A program made the translations under genes and the position numbers. From a virus, in the IMG/VR virus record IMGVR_UViG_3300020477_000049, positions 1-46,271 of that record: DNA of 46,271 bases; one strand, 5' to 3'. This document shows positions 24,890 through 35,909 of this stretch, piece after piece. The notes beneath the pieces were generated by a model. It was not told the DNA's origin, ran no database searches, and saw nothing but the letters and a program-made list of their open reading frames with translations. How positions within the stretch are numbered: position 1 is the stretch's first letter; each line of letters opens with the position of its first letter.

Positions 24890-25328
24890 CCTGCACAAAC
24901 CCCCTGAGTTCAGCGTTTTCGTCGACCTGCTTGCCGACCATACGCATCCACTCGACGTAAAAGGCCTTGGGATCGTTCTTGGCGAACTGGAGAAGCCCCC
25001 ACGCACCAGCCGAGGGGGCCTCTTCCGGTTCGACGTTTCCTACAGCAATGTTCTCGTAGACCCACTGGTAGTCTTCCCTGAGCGTGGACTTCTTGCCCTC
25101 GAAGACCTTGGCACTTGGTGGTCTCGGAAGCTCGACGCGCCGATTCTCACGGGTCGGTGGAGCAGGCAAACCCGGAGCCTCAGACACGCCGAACTCCGAG
25201 ACTGCCTGAGCGTAGGCCGCGCCCTTGGACATTCCTCCGGCTACAAGCTCCTCTCGCCTCTGCTTGAAGTCGTCGAAACGGCCCTCGGCTTTCAGCCGCT
25301 CGGCAATGAGTTCACTCGGGGATGGCAA
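24756..25328 (-). CDS. Possible terminase small subunit
   Basis: The 190-residue protein begins at a TTG (25328) supported by GGAG 8 nt upstream and by overlap with the protease end. The first 50 residues are helical, the middle Pro/Glu-rich, and about 85-150 helical again, then an acidic tail. It lies directly before the large terminase gene and overlaps it, where small subunits normally sit. No clear helix-turn-helix was recognised, so the assignment rests on position; an unrelated packaging accessory is possible. Confidence 0.4.
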   Translation of the reverse strand: MPSPSELIAERLKAEGRFDDFKQRREELVAGGMSKGAAYAQAVSEFGVSEAPGLPAPPTRENRRVELPRPPSAKVFEGKKSTLREDYQWVYENIAVGNVEPEEAPSAGAWGLLQFAKNDPKAFYVEWMRMVGKQVDENAELRGFVQDAARSSAEIAEMLRSLQAPPVHAGGQDDGGEPEAAADVVGESWS

Positions 25329-26211
25329 GGCTTGGTCTCCGCTGAAGGATCTTGGTCTTCCCGAAGACGTGTCCGTAGATGGTCGTCTTGGCTTCCACCT
25401 TCCAGCCCCGCTTGCCGATATCCTCGACGGGAATGCCCCCCATCTCCTTCTCGGCTGGCAGTGGCACCTTCGGGTTCATGGCCCACTCCACCTTGGCTTC
25501 TCTGGCCCACCTTCGCATCCTGCGGACAGGGACGTAGAGGGAGAACCCCTCCCCGGCACCTCGGACGAGCATGCCGACATAGACTCCCTTGTCTGCAAGG
25601 TAGATCCCCCCGCCGGAAGAGCCGGGGAAAGAAGTGGCGTTTGTCTGGTCGAAGATCGTCTTTCCGATCAAGCGGCCATGCTGAGACACGATTCCGTCCG
25701 TCAAGGAGCCGCTCCCCACTTCCCCCAGTAGGCTGCCGACGTGGTAGAGGCGGGTACCCAGAATGGGGGGCTTGTCCCCGTCGTAGAAGGTGACCCCCTC
25801 CTTGAACTGGTTCTTGGCCCGGACACGCAGGATCGCCAGATCCTCTCCGTGAGTGGCATCCGAGTACTTCAGCACCTGAGCGTCCAGCTCGAAGCGGCCC
25901 ACGGTACGCCCCGACTCGATAAGCGTCTTCACGACCTTGGCGTCCGAGAACTCCACAATCGTCTTCTGAGTCCCTGTCTTGGGGTCAATAACCCTGCGAG
26001 TACCCCGGAGTCCGTCCACGACATGGGCAGCCGTCCACACGAAGCACTGGCTGTCCCGTACATACAGGACGCCACTCCCCTCAGAGCGACCCGCCTTGAT
26101 CGTCACGGAGATGTTCTGGAGATGCGGGACGACCGCCTTGGGAGGCTCGGCAGCCCCCAGAGCAGTACACAGAACGAGGGTCAAAAAGAAAATCGCTCCA
26201 AGCCGCTTCAT
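25312..26211 (-). CDS. Secreted trypsin-like serine protease 1
   Basis: The 299-residue protein has a clear signal peptide (MKRLGAIFFLTLVLCTALGAAE). Chymotrypsin-fold catalytic motifs follow in order: WTAAHVV (His63), HGEDLAIL (Asp124) and FPGSSGGGIY (Ser199, GxSGG). The C-terminal 60 residues are Lys/Arg-rich. The start at ATG 26211 was chosen for the GGAG site and because it overlaps the stop of the upstream membrane protein as ATGA. It should act outside the cytoplasm, in the periplasm or at the envelope. Its place directly before the packaging genes is odd for a secreted enzyme. Substrate unknown. Confidence 0.8.
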   Translation of the reverse strand: MKRLGAIFFLTLVLCTALGAAEPPKAVVPHLQNISVTIKAGRSEGSGVLYVRDSQCFVWTAAHVVDGLRGTRRVIDPKTGTQKTIVEFSDAKVVKTLIESGRTVGRFELDAQVLKYSDATHGEDLAILRVRAKNQFKEGVTFYDGDKPPILGTRLYHVGSLLGEVGSGSLTDGIVSQHGRLIGKTIFDQTNATSFPGSSGGGIYLADKGVYVGMLVRGAGEGFSLYVPVRRMRRWAREAKVEWAMNPKVPLPAEKEMGGIPVEDIGKRGWKVEAKTTIYGHVFGKTKILQRRPSLAIPE

Positions 26212-26450
26212 CGCTTCTTCTCCCGAGTATAAGACCGCCACTCGCTCTCCCTGAGACGTGTCTCGCAAAAGCGACACCAGCTCCACATGGATGTGCTTAG
26301 GGTGGCATTCACCAGTACCAAGGCAACCACTATGCCAAGGACGTTACCCTCGGACAATACCACCATCGCCGTTATCGCGGCAACCGCAAACGCCTGTATA
26401 ACGACCAACCCCACTAGGGAGACGAAGATCCAAGAGAGCTTTATTCCCAT
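26208..26450 (-). CDS. Small membrane protein coupled to protease 1
   Basis: The 80-residue protein starts at ATG 26450, just after a hydrophilic stretch. It has two hydrophobic segments (about 6-27 and 34-53, with WIFVSLVGLVVIQAF and VVALVLVNATL), then a basic Cys-containing tail ending in KKR. Its TGA overlaps the protease ATG (ATGA), so the two are probably translated together and may work as a pair: a membrane anchor or holin-like protein and a secreted protease. It is the first gene of the leftward late region. No strong ribosome site is visible. Confidence 0.5.
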   Translation of the reverse strand: MGIKLSWIFVSLVGLVVIQAFAVAAITAMVVLSEGNVLGIVVALVLVNATLSTSMWSWCRFCETRLRESEWRSYTREKKR

Positions 26451-26755
26451 TTTCGTGTGTCCGTGGAGGGGGGATAACGGGACTCCCCGCCAGCGAAGGC
26501 GGAGGGGGGTCGGTTCCGTTTTCCGACTCGGCACTACATGTTGTGGTCGGCATCATGATAGTACACCAGATGTGGTATGCCCAACGTCCGATAACATCGG
26601 TTCTGTTAAGTTGGGCATCCCGCTCGCGCGAGTGTGGGAAGCTTGGGCGAGGTGGGCAAGTTATCAACACCATGATAGTGCCCAGCCCCACCGATCTCGC
26701 ATCCTTATTATGTCCCGACCGCCACAACCCATTGTGAGGATAATCAACGCAGCAA
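26451..26755. promoter_or_regulatory. Divergent control region, no gene seen
   Basis: This 300-base gap separates leftward and rightward genes. It holds a GC-rich stretch near 26461-26510, two copies of CATGATAGT (26554 and 26671) and a nested inverted repeat at 26577-26618. Short open frames on either strand lack ribosome sites and plausible composition. It probably contains the leftward promoter, which I could not place, and control sites. Confidence 0.5.
26577..26618. repeat. Nested inverted repeat in control region
   Basis: ATGCCCAAC at 26577-26585 and GTTGGGCAT at 26610-26618 form a perfect 9-bp inverted repeat. Between them CCGAT-AAC-ATCGG makes a second 5-bp hairpin. The inner CCGATAAC equals the -10 part of the promoters listed below, but no matching -35 element lies 16 nt upstream. 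It may be an operator or a recognition site for a replication or regulatory protein. Confidence 0.6.
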
Positions 26756-26784
26756 TCAAGTCGAGTGTGTGAATTGACGATAAC
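26756..26784 (+). promoter_or_regulatory. Sigma-28-like promoter P0
   Basis: TCAAGT, 16 nt, CGATAAC. It is one of seven such elements and lies 63 nt upstream of the first rightward gene. The -35 has one change from TAAAGT. It lacks the downstream AGTAG element seen at four others. Confidence 0.6.
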
Positions 26785-26846
26785 AAAGGCACCGGGGGAG
26801 TTCTGTTACTTCCCCACCACACTACTCTACTTGGAGACTTGGACAT

Positions 26847-27302
26847 ATGTTCATTTCAACAACTGCTGTTTGTGCTGTTCTCGTGGTTTCGGCGTTCGTT
26901 CTGGTCGTTCTGGCCAATCGTCGTATTCGTCAACAGGACAGACAGATCAAGGCTCAAGAGGTCTTGATGAGTAGTCAATCGGGGATTGTGGCTGATCTTG
27001 AGGATCAGTTGGCAGCCCTGATTGACGAGCGTGAGACTGTCGAGAGTGACCCGATCGACATTGATCAGGCCATTCTTGATGCCTTGCAAGAATTGCGACC
27101 CATGCTGGTCAGGAATGCCCAGTTTGGATTACAGTTCTTGGCCGATATGGGCCTGCCACAGGGGCAAGGCGTTGTCGGATTTCTGACGGCCTACTGTGGA
27201 TCGTTGCCCGTAAAGCAACAGCACAACAACGGCCAACGGAAACAGGAAAAAACCGATCCCAAGCCGGAACCCAAGACCTACAAGGTTCGGGATCGGAAGT
27301 AA
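26847..27302 (+). CDS. Membrane-anchored small protein, early gene 1
   Basis: The 151-residue protein has an N-terminal hydrophobic anchor (about 5-23, VCAVLVVSAFVLVVL), then a basic Arg/Gln stretch and a helical region (about 28-75) suited to a coiled coil, and a Lys/Glu/Pro-rich tail. Topology is probably a cytoplasmic body on a membrane anchor. It starts at ATG 26847 with GGAG 10 nt upstream. It is followed by a strong terminator. No family was recognised. As the first gene of the rightward region it may act in host takeover. Confidence 0.6.
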   Translation: MFISTTAVCAVLVVSAFVLVVLANRRIRQQDRQIKAQEVLMSSQSGIVADLEDQLAALIDERETVESDPIDIDQAILDALQELRPMLVRNAQFGLQFLADMGLPQGQGVVGFLTAYCGSLPVKQQHNNGQRKQEKTDPKPEPKTYKVRDRK

Positions 27303-27308
27303 GGCGAG

Positions 27309-27350
27309 AAAAACCCGGAAGGCTCGACGTGAGTCGACCGGGTTTTTCTT
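27309..27350 (+). terminator. Rho-independent terminator T1
   Basis: AAAAACCCGG pairs with CCGGGTTTTT, with an inner TCGAC-GTGA-GTCGA hairpin, and ends in a T-tract. It closes the first rightward unit. Confidence 0.9.
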
Positions 27351-27410
27351 TGCGCCGAAATATCCTGCATATTAACATGATAGTAAAAACGCGACCCAAT
27401 CAAGTAGCAC

Positions 27411-27439
27411 TAAAGTCTGTGTGTGGTTGTGTCGATAAC
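27411..27439 (+). promoter_or_regulatory. Sigma-28-like promoter P1
   Basis: TAAAGT, 16 nt, CGATAAC, with AGTAGCGG five bases after CGATA. It lies 44 nt upstream of the next gene, after terminator T1. Confidence 0.75.
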
Positions 27440-27482
27440 ACAAGTAGCGGAGAACATCACCTAACCTAACGGAGAGTTGATT

Positions 27483-27695
27483 ATGCTTATCGTTGCAAGG
27501 ATCGACAGTGGTTCAAAGGTAGGCGTGGCACATGGATTCAACGCCGGTCGACAGCGATCCCTTTGTGGGAAACTGGACCGGATGCGGAGAGATGTGCGAG
27601 AGACCTACGACCCCATCGAATGCCAAGCATGCGAAAAGAAACTCCAAGCCCTGCGTAGCAAGCCTACAAAGGGGCTAGACGGCCTGCTCTGGTAG
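27483..27695 (+). CDS. Small zinc-finger-like protein, early gene 2
   Basis: The 70-residue protein starts at ATG 27483 with GGAG 8 nt upstream. It has His18 and Cys28 in the first half (HGFNAGRQRSLCGK) and a second-half pair ECQACEKKL, a layout resembling small Zn-binding proteins of phages with a split H/C ... C-x2-C set. Basic throughout. Possible nucleic-acid or protein binder. It stands alone between promoter P1 and terminator T2. Confidence 0.6.
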   Translation: MLIVARIDSGSKVGVAHGFNAGRQRSLCGKLDRMRRDVRETYDPIECQACEKKLQALRSKPTKGLDGLLW

Positions 27696-27700
27696 GCCAC

Positions 27701-27739
27701 AAACCCGGGCCGTGATTACCACGGTGTCCGGGTTTTTTT
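27701..27739 (+). terminator. Rho-independent terminator T2
   Basis: AAACCCGG pairs with CCGGGTTT, with an inner CCGTG/CACGG stem, and is followed by seven T in a row. It follows early gene 2. Confidence 0.9.
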
Positions 27740-27749
27740 ATGCCTCCAC

Positions 27750-27778
27750 TAAAGTCTGATAGTAACAACGCCGATACA
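27750..27778 (+). promoter_or_regulatory. Sigma-28-like promoter P2
   Basis: TAAAGT, 16 nt, CGATACA, with AGTAGAGA five bases after CGATA. A TGATAGT motif lies inside the spacer. It is 45 nt upstream of early gene 3. Confidence 0.75.
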
Positions 27779-27822
27779 AGGAGTAGAGACGAGTTCCATT
27801 CAACCAAAGAAAGGTGAAAACA

Positions 27823-28164
27823 ATGGATTTGGCAACCATGCCTACTCAATCTGATGCCCTCTGGGACAAGATGAACCACGCCACTCAACAGGTCGCGTTG
27901 CATATTCTTCGCGACTCCTATGCCAACTCGCTGGCCAAGGATGTGGCCCGGTGTGTGCTTTCCGATAACGGCTGTCGCCGATTGGAATGCGAAGACCACT
28001 ACGATCGCAAGATCGACCCGGTCAATCACATCGCGGAGATATTCAAGGCCTTCTGCACATCCTCCAAGTTCTGGGGACCGCAGGTGAACCGGCTGTTCAG
28101 GAAGAATGTCCAATACTTCTTCCTTGCCGAGTGGTGGATACATCATGTGCGACGGCGGGCGTGA
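27823..28164 (+). CDS. Early gene 3, unknown
   Basis: The 113-residue protein starts at ATG 27823 (AAGG 8 nt upstream; a GTG three codons earlier is less well placed). It is mostly helical, with Trp, His and Cys scattered (CRRLECEDHYDRK near 46-58, EWWIHHVRRR at the end). The basic C-terminus ends in RRRA. No membrane segment or known family. A compact host-directed protein is plausible but unproven. Confidence 0.55.
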   Translation: MDLATMPTQSDALWDKMNHATQQVALHILRDSYANSLAKDVARCVLSDNGCRRLECEDHYDRKIDPVNHIAEIFKAFCTSSKFWGPQVNRLFRKNVQYFFLAEWWIHHVRRRA

Positions 28165-28169
28165 ACCGC

Positions 28170-28209
28170 AAGACAGGACACGGCTTTGGCCCTCTGTCCT
28201 GTCTTTTTT
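28170..28209 (+). terminator. Rho-independent terminator T3
   Basis: AAGACAGGACA pairs with TGTCCTGTCTT over 11 bp and runs into a tract of T. It closes early gene 3. Confidence 0.9.
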
Positions 28210-28229
28210 TGTTTTTACACAGATGATAG

Positions 28230-28258
28230 TCAAGTCTGAGGCAGCATGTGCCGATACA
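28230..28258 (+). promoter_or_regulatory. Sigma-28-like promoter P3
   Basis: TCAAGT, 16 nt, CGATACA, with AGTAGCCG five bases after CGATA. An ATGATAGT motif abuts the -35. It drives early gene 4 and probably the structured leader and two genes beyond. Confidence 0.7.
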
Positions 28259-28326
28259 ACAAGTAGCCGAGCAGGGGCGGAAACTTCCCCTGCCTGTTGA
28301 GGCAGTATCCTCAAACGGAGAGAGCT

Positions 28327-28764
28327 ATGCTTTTGTCATCACTGAAGGTTGTCTTCTGCGGAGAAGAGGACGCAGACCTCAAGAGTGCCACAAGCACAGA
28401 CAAGGCGATCCTAGCCATTGTCGGACAGCCTGTGGACGCTTGCGGCTGGTACGGCGGAATGCGTGAGTTGTTGTGGACAAACATCCCCTACGACTCAGCC
28501 GTCGTCTTCGCCCGAAAGATCGCAGAGGCCGTGTCCACGCCTTGCAGCGTGGAGGTGACAACCTCAGATGCTGAGAAGTGGGCGAACAGCCCGCTCTCTG
28601 ATGCGTCGGCCCTGCTGACGTACAAGGCGGTCAGAGAGGCCGTCAAGTCGGGGGATCTCGCCTTCGCTGGCAGATTCCCCTCAAGTTCGGAGATGGATTT
28701 CTCCGATATAGAGGACTACGAGCCGGGACGAGACACCCCACCGGGTGACAACTTCCCCTCGTAA
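28327..28764 (+). CDS. Early gene 4, unknown
   Basis: The 145-residue protein starts at ATG 28327 with GGAG 6 nt upstream. The N-terminus looks alpha/beta (LKVVFCGEED, then AILAIVGQP). The last 40 residues are acidic and Pro/Ser-rich, probably disordered. No catalytic motif is certain. It is followed by a 9-bp hairpin with no T-tract, so transcription probably reads on into the structured region. Confidence 0.55.
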   Translation: MLLSSLKVVFCGEEDADLKSATSTDKAILAIVGQPVDACGWYGGMRELLWTNIPYDSAVVFARKIAEAVSTPCSVEVTTSDAEKWANSPLSDASALLTYKAVREAVKSGDLAFAGRFPSSSEMDFSDIEDYEPGRDTPPGDNFPS

Positions 28765-28769
28765 AGAGC

Positions 28770-28917
28770 AAGCTAGTGTCGAGGAGCCGACACTAGGGCG
28801 AATCCACAGGGGTCGGGGGCGACGAATCCACCGCCTTTGTAACGGCCCCTGTGGACGTGCGGGGAGTTCTCCCCGTGCCTGACGAGCCAGACTGCTCGAA
28901 GTCGAAGCTGAGGAGCT
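28770..28917 (+). ncRNA. Candidate structured RNA / leader of early genes 5-6
   Basis: A chain of hairpins fills the gap between early genes 4 and 5. CTAGTGTCG/CGACACTAG (28773-28796, 6-nt loop), TCCACAGGGG/CCCCTGTGGA (28803-28855), a 9-bp stem including GGGGA/TCCCC (28857-28878), CGAGC/GCTCG (28883-28898) and AGCT/AGCT around the ribosome site GAGG (28906-28917). GCTC at 28894 can instead pair with GAGC at 28913, masking the ribosome site. This could be a translational switch or a small RNA. No known family was recognised. Confidence 0.5.
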
Positions 28918-28923
28918 ACCACT

Positions 28924-29109
28924 ATGTGGGGTTTAGTTATGCAACGAGGTCAAATCCAAAAGATTTACCTCTTGGACGACGAACTTGCCAAGGATGGCTT
29001 CGACATCACGGACACTGTGAAGTGTCCTGACCTCTTGTTTGACAAGGCGGAGAGTTACATCCGTGACATTCGAGAGGCACACAAAGCTGGGAGTCACAAC
29101 GATGAGTGA
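28924..29109 (+). CDS. Early gene 5, small acidic protein
   Basis: The 61-residue protein starts at ATG 28924 with GAGGAG 8 nt upstream, inside a hairpin. It is helical and acidic, with one cysteine (VKCPDLL). It ends with a TGA overlapping the next gene as ATGAGTGA. No family recognised. Its expression may depend on the structured RNA before it. Confidence 0.55.
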   Translation: MWGLVMQRGQIQKIYLLDDELAKDGFDITDTVKCPDLLFDKAESYIRDIREAHKAGSHNDE

Positions 29110-29203
29110 ACATCTTATCAACATGATTGCCTACTTCGCCGCCGGAGCCTTCCTCTTTGGGCTTGCTGCCCTAGACAGGTGGGCCAAGAAACGCGGCTGG
29201 TAG
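29102..29203 (+). CDS. 33-residue membrane peptide, early gene 6
   Basis: The ATG at 29102 overlaps the stop of early gene 5 by 8 nt (ATGAGTGA), suggesting coupling. The product has one hydrophobic segment (about 6-23, IAYFAAGAFLFGLAA) and a basic end (DRWAKKRGW), a typical single-pass micro-membrane protein. A strong terminator follows. A similar ATGAGTGA junction occurs at 39462-39469. Confidence 0.55.
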   Translation: MSEHLINMIAYFAAGAFLFGLAALDRWAKKRGW

Positions 29204-29225
29204 GACATGATAGTGGCCTCCACAC

Positions 29226-29313
29226 AGGGCCGGGACACGTTCAGGGACCGCAAAGCCACAGGCAAAGAGCCGCAGGCACGGGCTTCCTGAACCGCTGTTC
29301 CGGCCCTTTTTTT
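29226..29313 (+). terminator. Extended terminator T4
   Basis: AGGGCCGG pairs with CCGGCCCT, an inner TTCAGG/CCTGAA helix and a 40-nt apical region lie between, and seven T follow. It is longer than the other terminators, so the apical part may have another role. Confidence 0.75.
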
Positions 29314-29323
29314 GTGATGCAGC

Positions 29324-29353
29324 TAAAGTCAACGGCCAAGTAGTGCCGATAAG
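29324..29353 (+). promoter_or_regulatory. Sigma-28-like promoter P4
   Basis: TAAAGT, 17 nt, CGATAAG: the only one of the seven with a 17-nt spacer. It lies 47 nt upstream of early gene 7. The downstream AGTAG element is absent. Confidence 0.6.
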
Positions 29354-29399
29354 TATAAACAGACACCTTTTCAGACGGTTCTAACTAGGAGAAAAACCA

Positions 29400-29774
29400 A
29401 TGAACCAGAAGAATACCAAGCAGACCCTCATTGGGCTGTTGGATACCCATCTGGCCAGTGTAATCAACGCACTGGTGGGCGACGGGGTTCTTGGAGAAGA
29501 AGACTTCAAGTCCGTCACGGATGCGTCGAACAGGTTCATGGAGGGTGTGCAGCCCGAGCTGCTCGAAGTCGAACTCTCCTCCCTGCTCAATCTTATCCGC
29601 CCAGATCGCTACAACAAGGCGATCGAGAAGCGGCGGAGTGCCAAGGCTGGGAGGAACGGTAAGCGGAAGAGGCGTAATCGGGGGAATGGCGACACGGCTG
29701 ATGCGACACCGAGAGTGTTCACACCGCCACCGCCCATGCCCGCCGAAGACCTCTTTGCAGAGTACGACTTCTGA
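29400..29774 (+). CDS. Early gene 7, basic-core protein
   Basis: The 124-residue protein starts at ATG 29400 with GGAG 8 nt upstream. Residues 1-70 are helical, followed by a Lys/Arg-rich patch (about 76-95, RNGKRKRRNRG) and a Pro-rich acidic end (PPPPMPAEDLFAEYDF). The layout resembles a small nucleic-acid-binding protein with an acidic tail; the function is unknown. The stop overlaps a TGATAGT motif. Confidence 0.55.
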   Translation: MNQKNTKQTLIGLLDTHLASVINALVGDGVLGEEDFKSVTDASNRFMEGVQPELLEVELSSLLNLIRPDRYNKAIEKRRSAKAGRNGKRKRRNRGNGDTADATPRVFTPPPPMPAEDLFAEYDF

Positions 29775-29798
29775 TAGTAAATACCGGGGGGTGTGGGG

Positions 29799-29838
29799 AC
29801 GGGAGGAGTGGGAATTATCCTACTCCTCCCGTTTTTTT
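29799..29838 (+). terminator. Rho-independent terminator T5
   Basis: CGGGAGGAGT pairs with ACTCCTCCCG over 10 bp, followed by seven T. It closes early gene 7. Confidence 0.9.
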
Positions 29839-29858
29839 GTGCATTTATCCTTGACTGC

Positions 29859-29887
29859 TAAAGTTCGAGTGTAACAATTCCGATAAC
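29859..29887 (+). promoter_or_regulatory. Sigma-28-like promoter P5
   Basis: TAAAGT, 16 nt, CGATAAC, with AGTAGCGA five bases after CGATA, 49 nt upstream of the DUF932-like gene. Confidence 0.75.
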
Positions 29888-29935
29888 TACAGTAGCGAAG
29901 GGTTACTTCTTTGGGGCTTACACGAAAGGAAAGCC

Positions 29936-30733
29936 ATGAGTTTTATTACCCACTGTGGATCTAGGCGAGTCAGTGAGTCGGTCCTCCGAAAAATGGGGAC
30001 AGCCGAAGGGACTGAAACGCACAGGCCCATATCGCACTGGGATGCGTTCAACCGTACCGCTAACGGCCTCCGGGCTGCGGGATGGGAGGTCACATCCGCC
30101 AAGCACGCCGTCAACAGCCGCAACGACTTCTCTGGGCTGTGGGACCAATACTTTGGTCTCATGGAACTAAAGAAGATCCAAGGCCACGACGGAGCAGCAT
30201 CCGATCTCGGCCAAGAGGCAGGGATGGTTGCTGGTGTGCGAAACGCGCACGACAAGCGATTCCCTTACGGGTTCGTTTTTGGTGCAAAGGTGTTCGTCTG
30301 CGATAACCTCGCCTTTCACGGGGAGGTCACAGAGACCAGACGACACACCAAGAACATCGACGAAGACCTCGACGGAGTTATCCACAGAGGGATTCGGATG
30401 TTGAACGAGGGTCGGTCTGTTATTGCAGACAGGCACAAGACCTACCAGACGACGCAGATGAGCGAAGCTCAAGCACACGACATCGTTGTCCGGTCGTGGA
30501 GGGATGCAAACGTGATCCCCAAGACCGTGGCTGATAGTGTTCTTGACGAGTTCTACGCACCGTCACACGAGAAACACAAGGAGTACGACGCTGCGTTCCC
30601 CGGACTGAGGTCCATGTGGAGGCTGTACAACGCCTTCACTGAGTCGCTCAAGGATCGGGGTTCCATGTCTACTCTCTCGGAAAGGACGATGCGACTGCAC
30701 ACGCTTCTGGACAGGTACGCTGCTGCTGCGTAG
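29936..30733 (+). CDS. DUF932-like phage/plasmid protein
   Basis: The 265-residue protein starts at ATG 29936 (AAGGA 5 nt upstream). The middle carries FGAKVFVCDNLAFHGEVTET followed by RRHTKNIDEDLD, the 'vCsN.l..f...~~rkHt.~~~~~~~' pattern of DUF932 / phage-plasmid-like proteins. The second half is helical. DUF932 proteins are common in phages and plasmids and of unknown molecular role. It is the largest gene of the rightward region. Confidence 0.6.
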   Translation: MSFITHCGSRRVSESVLRKMGTAEGTETHRPISHWDAFNRTANGLRAAGWEVTSAKHAVNSRNDFSGLWDQYFGLMELKKIQGHDGAASDLGQEAGMVAGVRNAHDKRFPYGFVFGAKVFVCDNLAFHGEVTETRRHTKNIDEDLDGVIHRGIRMLNEGRSVIADRHKTYQTTQMSEAQAHDIVVRSWRDANVIPKTVADSVLDEFYAPSHEKHKEYDAAFPGLRSMWRLYNAFTESLKDRGSMSTLSERTMRLHTLLDRYAAAA

Positions 30734-30739
30734 GCCCTT

Positions 30740-30781
30740 GGCCCTCGGCCAGATCACAACGATCTGGTCGGGGGCTTTTTC
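30740..30781 (+). terminator. Rho-independent terminator T6
   Basis: GGCCAGATC pairs with GATCTGGTC, with an outer GCCCTC/GGGGGC part, followed by TTTTT. Confidence 0.85.
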
Positions 30782-30788
30782 ATTGCGC

Positions 30789-30817
30789 TAAAGTTTGAGT
30801 GTCGTAATGCCGATAAC
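30789..30817 (+). promoter_or_regulatory. Sigma-28-like promoter P6
   Basis: The closest match of the set: TAAAGTTT, then GCCGATAAC, with TAAAGT and CGATAAC separated by 16 nt. The published E. coli FliA consensus is TAAAGTTT-N11-GCCGATAA; here the gap is 12. It lies 44 nt upstream of early gene 9. Confidence 0.75.
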
Positions 30818-31205: not shown

Positions 31206-31250
31206 ACGAAAGGCCCCGGCAGGCATTGAGCTTACCGGGGCCTTTTTCGT
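31206..31250. terminator. Bidirectional terminator between convergent genes
   Basis: CGAAAGGCCCCGG...CCGGGGCCTTTTTCG gives a stem of about 13 bp with T-tracts on both strands. It separates the rightward early genes from the leftward cluster ending at 31257. Confidence 0.9.
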
Positions 31251-33215: not shown

Positions 33216-33278
33216 TCAATCCTCATGACAGGGACAGAAGGGACAATCTTCACACTCGCAGGTCTCGTTGTCGCACAT
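33216..33278 (-). CDS. 20-residue cysteine-rich micropeptide
   Basis: The ATG at 33278 shares its A with the TGA of the secreted protease gene (TGATG) and has GAGGG 7 nt upstream; its stop lies 3 nt before the next ATG. The 20 residues include cysteines at 2, 7, 9, 12, 15 and 17 and a histidine at 18, with several acidic residues: a CxC/CxxC layout resembling metal-binding knuckles. It fills the gap exactly and is probably translated. It could bind metal or be a tiny regulator or inhibitor of the protease. Function unknown. Confidence 0.55.
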   Translation of the reverse strand: MCDNETCECEDCPFCPCHED

Positions 33279-34174
33279 CACTTGGCCCTCGGTAACATGA
33301 GCTTGATTGGTGTGCCAAACGGGTAAGCCTTCTCCTGAATCACCTTCCCGGTCTTGGGGTCGATTATCTGCACTCGAATTGGAGTGCGATTGATTCGGGC
33401 TAGTTCTTCCCGTTGCTCCTGCAACAACTTCAGAATATGGATGATTGCGTTGGTTCTGTCAATGTCCGAATTGAGCTTGATCCCGTCCACCTCAACCTTC
33501 TCTTCCGGGCCAATCTCGTCGACACCGCCAAAAACAGGCACGCTTGTTGTACTCTGCGACTTTTCCAAAAAAGAAACGATCTGGTCGTGCGGGGCCGCGA
33601 ACACCGCCTTATTGTTCTTGCTCCCGTGGGTTGTTACTCCAACCAGCTTTCCGTGCAGGAAAACACCCCCGCCGGAGTTGCCGGGGCGAAACTTCCCCTT
33701 CTTGACCTCCAGAAACCACCGCTTCTCGGGCAGGTTCGTGATAGAGACCCTGCCGCCGTACTCCAGTTCGGTCACCTCTGGCCCCTCGCCTCTGGGGTAC
33801 CCACAGCCGCGATACTCCAGCTTGCCGCCAGTCGTGTACTTCTCGACGACCGGGTAAACACCCAAGGTCTTGTCTGCAACACAACGGAACAGGGACAGAT
33901 CCTTGTCGCGATCAATCGCAATCCAAGTCACATTCCCGCCGCTTCCGTCTCTGTTCCAGAAGGCGTTTACGGCTCCTACTTTGGGCGCGCAGTGTGCGGC
34001 GGATATCCCAATCGCGACTGTCCCTTTCCTGCCAATAACTGTCCCAGAGCATCCGTTCACCCGGATACTTGAGTCCAAAAAGTCGTTCGCTAGAGTAGGG
34101 TCCGTCGACAGCGACAGGACACACAAAGCTACAGACAGAGGGACGAGCAGCCAAGCTAGTAATCGTTTGCGCAT
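33278..34174 (-). CDS. Secreted trypsin-like serine protease 2
   Basis: The 298-residue protein has a signal peptide (MRKRLLAWLLVPLSVALCVL) and a trypsin-like triad: SAAHC (His61), DKDLSLF (Asp92) and RPGNSGGGVF (Ser167, GxSGG). The C-terminal third (about 210-298) is helical and probably a separate domain ending in a beta hairpin. It is unlike protease 1 apart from the triad. The start at ATG 34174 is supported by GGGGG 7 nt upstream, which lies inside a hairpin. It should act outside the cytoplasm; a role in envelope breakdown or host surface cleavage is inferred. Confidence 0.8.
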   Translation of the reverse strand: MRKRLLAWLLVPLSVALCVLSLSTDPTLANDFLDSSIRVNGCSGTVIGRKGTVAIGISAAHCAPKVGAVNAFWNRDGSGGNVTWIAIDRDKDLSLFRCVADKTLGVYPVVEKYTTGGKLEYRGCGYPRGEGPEVTELEYGGRVSITNLPEKRWFLEVKKGKFRPGNSGGGVFLHGKLVGVTTHGSKNNKAVFAAPHDQIVSFLEKSQSTTSVPVFGGVDEIGPEEKVEVDGIKLNSDIDRTNAIIHILKLLQEQREELARINRTPIRVQIIDPKTGKVIQEKAYPFGTPIKLMLPRAK

Positions 34175-35804: not shown

Positions 35805-35838
35805 TTTTACCTCCAAGGACAAGGAAAGGAACGTGGAG

Positions 35839-35909
35839 TGGACCTGCCGGGAATCGAACCCGGTTGCCGTTGCGGTTTTTAAGACCACGAGGCTCCACCT
35901 GTCAGGCCC
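35839..35909 (-). tRNA. tRNA-Leu (anticodon UAA)
   Basis: On the minus strand GGGCCTG and CAGGTCC form the acceptor stem (one G-U pair). The anticodon arm is GTGGT-CTTAAAA-ACCGC with anticodon UAA. The T arm is CCGGG-TTCGATT-CCCGG. The 71-nt length is short: the D loop is only 5 nt and the variable region is 8 nt, unusual for a leucine tRNA, which normally has a long variable arm. The CCA end is not encoded. It may support reading of UUA codons in a GC-rich genome. Confidence 0.75.

Follow-up and report, generated by a model that had tools for sequence, protein, structure and literature searches.

Seven elements resembling sigma-28 promoters precede the short genes of a phage gene island

The IMG/VR record IMGVR_UViG_3300020477_000049 (46,271 bases, classed linear and without end repeats), hereafter the window, carries on its plus strand an island of about nine short phage genes in which the same bipartite element, TMAAGT-N16/17-CGATAM (M being A or C), recurs seven times (P0 to P6, Table 1). 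These elements are confined to the island, are conserved in related phages and possess a conserved base at the position expected for the start of transcription. On the basis of these sequence features, they are probably promoters read by the host RNA polymerase together with a host sigma factor of the sigma-28 type (FliA/SigD/WhiG family). In the mechanism that we propose, TAAAGTTT would serve as the -35 region and GCCGATAA as the -10 region, separated by a gap of 12 nucleotides (13 in P4). The host polymerase carrying a FliA/SigD/WhiG-family sigma factor would recognize them, transcription would begin at the purine located eight bases past the -10 octamer, and the seven promoters would drive seven separately terminated units.

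Elements and layout of the island

A preliminary description of this DNA had reported seven recurring elements, and all of them were recovered where it had placed them, on the plus strand. No further copy was found on either strand of the window. In 300 dinucleotide shuffles, 0.02 elements per window were expected by chance, with a maximum of 2, compared to the seven observed, and an independent count of the 16-nucleotide form alone gave six copies for 0.00 expected. The -35 half reads TAAAGT in five of the seven elements and TCAAGT in the other two; CGATA is present in every -10 half, and the complete GCCGATAA octamer at P4 and P6.

Resemblance to FliA promoters was scored over the 16 octamer positions, with gaps of 8 to 16 allowed, using the Escherichia coli consensus, TAAAGTTT-n11-GCCGATAA with a gap of 11 (PMC2859248). 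P6, at 30789, had been singled out as the strongest element, containing both FliA halves with one base more between them; it matches the consensus at 16/16 positions with a gap of 12. Apart from P1 to P6, every window position scores below 13/16 over the whole range of gaps (8 to 16).

Each element lies between the end of the upstream gene, or a terminator, and a start codon, from which the -10 half is separated by 44-69 nucleotides, in agreement with the 44-70 nucleotides previously given. From P1 onward, the six units are all preceded by a terminator-like hairpin, and the element follows shortly past its T-run. This arrangement is a promoter layout. Lytic phages carry early promoter arrays with one terminator per gene, and the island shares with them its serial short units, each with a promoter and a terminator, gathered in one strand-switched island. 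To our knowledge, the known arrays of this type rely on sigma-70-type promoters or on phage polymerases. When sigma-70-like hexamers (TTGACA/TATAAT) were searched in the gaps upstream of the units, scores did not exceed those of shuffled gaps, with the exception of P5 (9/12). Sigma-70 was also rejected as the reader of the elements themselves, since their -10 register, GATAAC or GATACA, lacks the required final T.

Related phages and candidate hosts

Elements of this kind were found in six relatives, namely L002, L003/L019, L024 (four), L098 (five), L020 and L004, and 31 sites from these phage contigs and the window were compiled in a joint table of seven phages. L002 has orthologous units, and its DUF932 protein is 83% identical to that of the window. 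Between these two phages, the -35, the -10 and the start region of P1 to P6 are kept; divergence has affected the spacers and a large part of the flanking DNA. At P1 to P4, the upstream DNA aligns little and the element aligns; the site orthologous to P1 is kept and the intergenic DNA around it is not. The L002 ortholog of P4 has a spacer of 16 nucleotides, and several L002 sites match 15-16 of the 16 FliA positions.

Across the seven phages, the constant columns are T1, A3, A4, G5, C23-A27 and A36, T1 being replaced by G in the sole L004 site. The T, A, A and G of the -35 are nearly fixed around a second base which is A or C, CGATA is the majority -10 sequence in all seven phages, and the A located eight bases past the -10 octamer, which likely corresponds to the start nucleotide, is present in 28 of the 31 sites. 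Spacers differ from phage to phage. Since only the -35 TnAAG, the -10 CGATA and this A hold across phages, the conserved pattern has the anatomy of a promoter. The window, L002 and L003 have the spacer bases gTGyaa.AA in common, whereas distant phages do not; this conservation would stem from recent common descent or be an addition specific to the subfamily.

Regarding the factor reading these elements, the preliminary description had recognized no phage sigma factor. Consistently, neither a sigma factor nor an RNA polymerase was recognized in the window, whose record is possibly incomplete and whose small open reading frames were not all scanned, and the L003 and L001 records contain no recognizable sigma factor. 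Relatives of the terminase were found on 31 genome contigs. The closest one (78%) is located on a contig of 23 kb that was assigned by binning to a 'Deltaproteobacteria' metagenome-assembled genome (MAG), and the next ones (37-46%) belong mostly to Planctomycetota and other bacteria of the Planctomycetes-Verrucomicrobia-Chlamydiae (PVC) group. When 294 planctomycete genomes and 379 from the RS363 phylum were searched with the terminase, no additional close relative emerged. A FliA_WhiG protein above the family cut-off is encoded by all 11 searched genomes containing a terminase relative, several of them having two or three, and the candidate host genomes possess many sigma factors.

Sequences of the same type precede bacterial genes in these candidate hosts. 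In the 'Deltaproteobacteria' MAG of the nearest relative, which holds L098, flagellin genes lie behind TCAA-N15-TCCGATAT and TCAA-N15-GCCGATAG, both promoters starting with TCAAG. In L154 (Planctomycetota), TAAA-N16-GCCGATAA, which has the spacing of the phage elements and is shared with them, precedes a FliA-family sigma gene; the spacer is N15 in L158. Three planctomycete genomes (loci L149, L150 and L152) have TAAA-N16-GCCGATAA upstream of a conserved short gene as well. The encoded protein (..RQLVLNKG.EKFIFRY..) belongs to no Pfam family and is, judging from this promoter, a candidate core target of the planctomycete FliA/WhiG sigma factor; its identification as FlgM was dropped, as Pfam did not confirm it. 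A count of the FliA pattern over the 294 planctomycete genomes proved too noisy and was not used. A sigma factor of the FliA/WhiG family need not control flagella, since WhiG, which has the same promoter specificity as FliA, is a sporulation sigma factor in Streptomyces (PMC8325347).

Collectively, the window elements share both octamers (16/16 in P6) with bacterial sigma-28 promoters, and their start is expected shortly past the -10. The spacing is of a similar type, with a gap of 12 (13 in P4) for 11 in E. coli. The window elements further differ from bacterial sigma-28 promoters by preceding short phage genes and by carrying phage-specific conserved spacer bases.

Arrays in other phages and competing explanations

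IMG/VR was scanned with the exact FliA consensus at gaps of 10-13, and 80 loci were analyzed among the matches listed. Within these loci, 16/16 sites numbered 5, 39, 31 and 18 at gaps of 10, 11, 12 and 13, respectively; a reversed-pattern control yielded 99 stretches and was evenly distributed among the gaps (19, 23, 16 and 22). At least three sites of at least 14/16 were present in 25 of the 80 loci, compared to 1 of 80 for the control. Over whole records, sites with at most three mismatches number 14 in L316, 13 in L279 and 16 in L269, as compared to 1, 1 and 2 for the controls. No kinship between these phages and the window phage was detected, in a search that was not exhaustive, and when the promoter sequences were compared with isolate phages by BLAST, only chance-level matches resulted.

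Two classes were distinguished. Class A phages have the canonical gap of 11 and no sigma-70 elements. In one of them, L316, a stretch of 5 kb contains 11 sites scoring 14/16 or better; many lie 31-38 nucleotides upstream of a start codon, and one precedes a PAPS (phosphoadenosine phosphosulfate) reductase gene. In the same class, a phage terminase is present in L242, and genes for phage replication are present in L296. At class A sites, position +7 is T in 25 of 27 cases and position +8 is a purine in 26 of 27. These arrays suggest that some phages may borrow the motility-type sigma factor of their host. In class B phages (L253, L309, L243, L257, L238, L268, L292 and others), the motif is combined with a near-consensus sigma-70 promoter, either as TAAAGTTT-n5-TTGACA-n3-GCCGATAA-n6-TATAAT (register 1) or, shifted by 20-21 bp, as TTGACA-n3-TAAAGTTT-n6-TATAAT-n-CCGATAT (register 2). 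Relative to TTGACA/TATAAT, TMAAG..CCGATA lies at an offset of 11-14 in 63 sites and of -7 to -9 in nine. Such fixed registers could correspond to a dual sigma-70/sigma-28 promoter or to the operator of a regulator. Register 2 has an A at +8 in 9/9 sites, which leans weakly toward a dual promoter, as the surrounding stretch is A-rich. Overlapping sigma-70/sigma-28 promoters likewise combine two sigma-type promoter sets in one stretch; this was not seen in the window, where P5 alone has a weak sigma-70-like overlap.

Several observations weigh against sigma-28 promoters in the window. The gap between the octamers is 12 (13 in P4) instead of the 11 of E. coli, and the spacer conservation seen within a phage goes beyond what is required of a plain sigma-28 promoter. 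In class B, a motif overlapping sigma-70 promoters in two fixed registers resembles an operator. As the contig may be incomplete, a phage sigma factor could be encoded outside it. Host assignment is split between the 'Deltaproteobacteria' MAG (78%) and mostly Planctomycetota/PVC bacteria (at most 46%), binning being weak evidence, and a tetranucleotide comparison did not decide the host. Mainly because of the class B registers, we go no further than calling a sigma-28 factor the probable reader. The preliminary description had advanced the same reading, with a phage or host regulator of similar target as the alternative. The first is well supported by the 16/16 match, the conserved core and start-site A, the terminator-promoter layout, the lack of a recognized sigma factor or RNA polymerase in the window and the FliA-family proteins of 11/11 genomes. 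The second is weakened for the window phage and stays, with some force gained from class B.

According to this regulator alternative, the element would be a bipartite operator and the true promoter would be a different one; in class B, the operator would overlie the sigma-70 promoter along a single face of the DNA. The two class B registers, about 20-21 bp apart, fit such an arrangement, as do the additional spacer bases conserved in the window family. Yet the halves differ from one another and are non-palindromic, the distance between them shifts by one or two bases, which is also seen in sigma-dependent promoters, and a start-site purine occupies a constant position eight bases downstream, class B register 2 included. 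Furthermore, most terminator-to-start gaps of the window contain no other promoter candidate, and if the elements were operators only, a separate promoter could hardly be accommodated there. We consider an operator unlikely in the window, although it is the alternative to be taken most seriously.

That a phage-encoded sigma factor or single-subunit RNA polymerase with a sigma-28-like target, located outside the contig or too divergent to be detected, reads the elements is improbable. Within one phage, conservation does extend from the spacer to a few bases beyond the expected start, and a record classed linear is possibly a fragment. Across phages, the sigma-28 core alone is constant and the spacers change freely; no gene for such a factor was recognized in the window, nor a sigma gene in the L003 and L001 records, and a polymerase serving the first genes would need to enter with the virion, but no window protein resembles one. 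Slightly less probable still is another host alternative sigma factor, of the extracytoplasmic function (ECF) type or another group 3 member, which would read TMAAG/CGATA and make the likeness to FliA coincidental. In L024 and L020, the -35 TCAAG and -10 ACGATAA depart from the consensus given in textbooks, and the sigma factors of the candidate hosts are many; against this stand P6 and several L002 sites with 15-16 of 16 FliA positions, and the TCAAG which also opens the two flagellin promoters of the MAG holding L098. Finally, chance or a repeat family devoid of promoter function, for which only the mutual similarity of the copies speaks, is very hard to credit, being contradicted by the relatives, in which the core and the start site are conserved, by seven copies for 0.02 in shuffles and by their placement exclusively before island start codons.

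If sigma-28 promoters do drive the island, its genes might, as a hypothesis, be expressed early and depend on motility or the flagellar program, and the host might be motile, with infection tied to its motile state. More tentatively, and with greater doubt than assent, several phage lineages forming a hitherto unrecognized class might run gene arrays from host sigma-28 promoters, some with sigma-70 promoters overlaid in fixed register, their infection being gated by or adapted to the motile (swarmer) program. A search of one open-access library, which does not cover subscription papers, turned up no description of sigma-28 promoters driving phage genes, an absence that does not prove novelty. 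Sigma-54 promoters have reportedly been proposed in Pseudomonas phage YuA; in both cases, phage genes would be controlled by an alternative sigma factor of the host, while the sigma family differs and the window has seven separately terminated units. If the reading proposed for the phage arrays is confirmed, these phages would sense the motility program through transcription, beyond flagellar receptors, giving a testable tie between swimming (perhaps the swarmer stage in Planctomycetota) and the outcome of infection. It would also provide a sequence signature by which such phages could be found, and would allow an active FliA-family sigma factor to be inferred in an uncultured host.

Further features of the window

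The window comes from a phage according to the genes recognized, which encode a large terminase, an internal virion protein, a Sak4-like recombinase, a PD-(D/E)XK-type exonuclease and a RuvC-like resolvase. Most of its genes are on the minus strand, the plus-strand island occupying ~26.7-31.2 kb (~4.5 kb), and a single island gene has a confident family (DUF932). A near-DNA search of the window against 50,697 phage records gave no match, nor did a search of phage records with its portal-like protein; for the terminase, the best-ranked matches in phage records are ~25% identical or less.

Table 1. Positions of the elements, hairpins, genes and short motifs (window coordinates unless another contig is named)
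Feature	Position	Strand	Description
P0	26756..26783	+	TCAAGT-N16-CGATAA; weakest of the seven
P1	27411..27438	+	TAAAGT-N16-CGATAA; 14/16 FliA consensus
P2	27750..27777	+	TAAAGT-N16-CGATAC; 14/16 FliA consensus
P3	28230..28257	+	TCAAGT-N16-CGATAC; 13/16 FliA consensus
P4	29324..29352	+	TAAAGT-N17-CGATAA; 14/16 FliA consensus, gap 13
P5	29859..29886	+	TAAAGT-N16-CGATAA; 14/16 FliA consensus; overlaps 9/12 sigma-70-like TTGACT-16-AACAAT
P6	30789..30816	+	TAAAGT-N16-CGATAA, i.e., TAAAGTTT-N12-GCCGATAA; 16/16 FliA consensus, spacer one base longer
Predicted transcription start of P6	30824	+	A, eight bases past the -10 octamer
Terminator-like hairpin before P1	27311..27348	+	with T-run; from sequence and fold
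Terminator-like hairpin before P2	27703..27739	+	from sequence and fold
Terminator-like hairpin before P3	28170..28211	+	from sequence and fold
Terminator-like hairpin before P4	29227..29314	+	long loop; from sequence and fold
Terminator-like hairpin before P5	29800..29838	+	from sequence and fold
Terminator-like hairpin before P6	30740..30781	+	from sequence and fold
Terminator-like hairpin past the last island gene	31211..31247	+	from sequence
Gene 1	26847..27302	+	151 amino acids (aa), hydrophobic segment at N-terminus, no family
Gene 2	27483..27695	+	~70 aa, weak match to phrog_2358 (unknown function)
Gene 3	27823..28164	+	~113 aa, no confident family; strong conservation in L002
Gene 4	28327..28764	+	no family
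Two small open reading frames of the P3 unit	28924-29109 and 29102-29203	+	
Gene under P4	29400..29774	+	124 aa, no confident family
Gene under P5	29936..30733	+	265 aa, DUF932-type protein (PF06067, E=1.6e-5, above cut-off)
Gene under P6	30861..31205	+	114 aa, no confident family
TGATAGT copies	26556, 26673, 27378, 27757, 28224, 29208, 29772, 30532	+	
GACTCC...GGGGGGTCCGGTTCC element	L098 near 8512, L024 near 2407, L022 8553, L023 73	-	

Two genes for trypsin-like serine proteases are present on the minus strand, at 25312-26286 (PF13365, E=3e-13) and 33278-34174 (weak phrog protease match). ARAGORN predicted a tRNA-Leu (taa) of 72 bases at 35838-35909 on the minus strand, which is short for a leucine tRNA and is possibly a relic or a false call.

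In L098, L024, L022 and L023, a conserved non-coding element, GACTCC...GGGGGGTCCGGTTCC, with a predicted hairpin is located between the structural genes and the plus-strand island. A similar stretch lies near 26470-26530 in the window, where an Rfam scan gave no match. Another short sequence, TGATAGT (often CATGATAGT), occurs 10 times in the window for 2.1 expected, on the plus strand only and never on the minus strand, with eight of the 10 copies within the 4 kb island. In L002 and L003, TGATAG(T) is likewise found near and upstream of the sigma-28-like sites, also on one strand only, and TGATAGT could be a second regulatory site.

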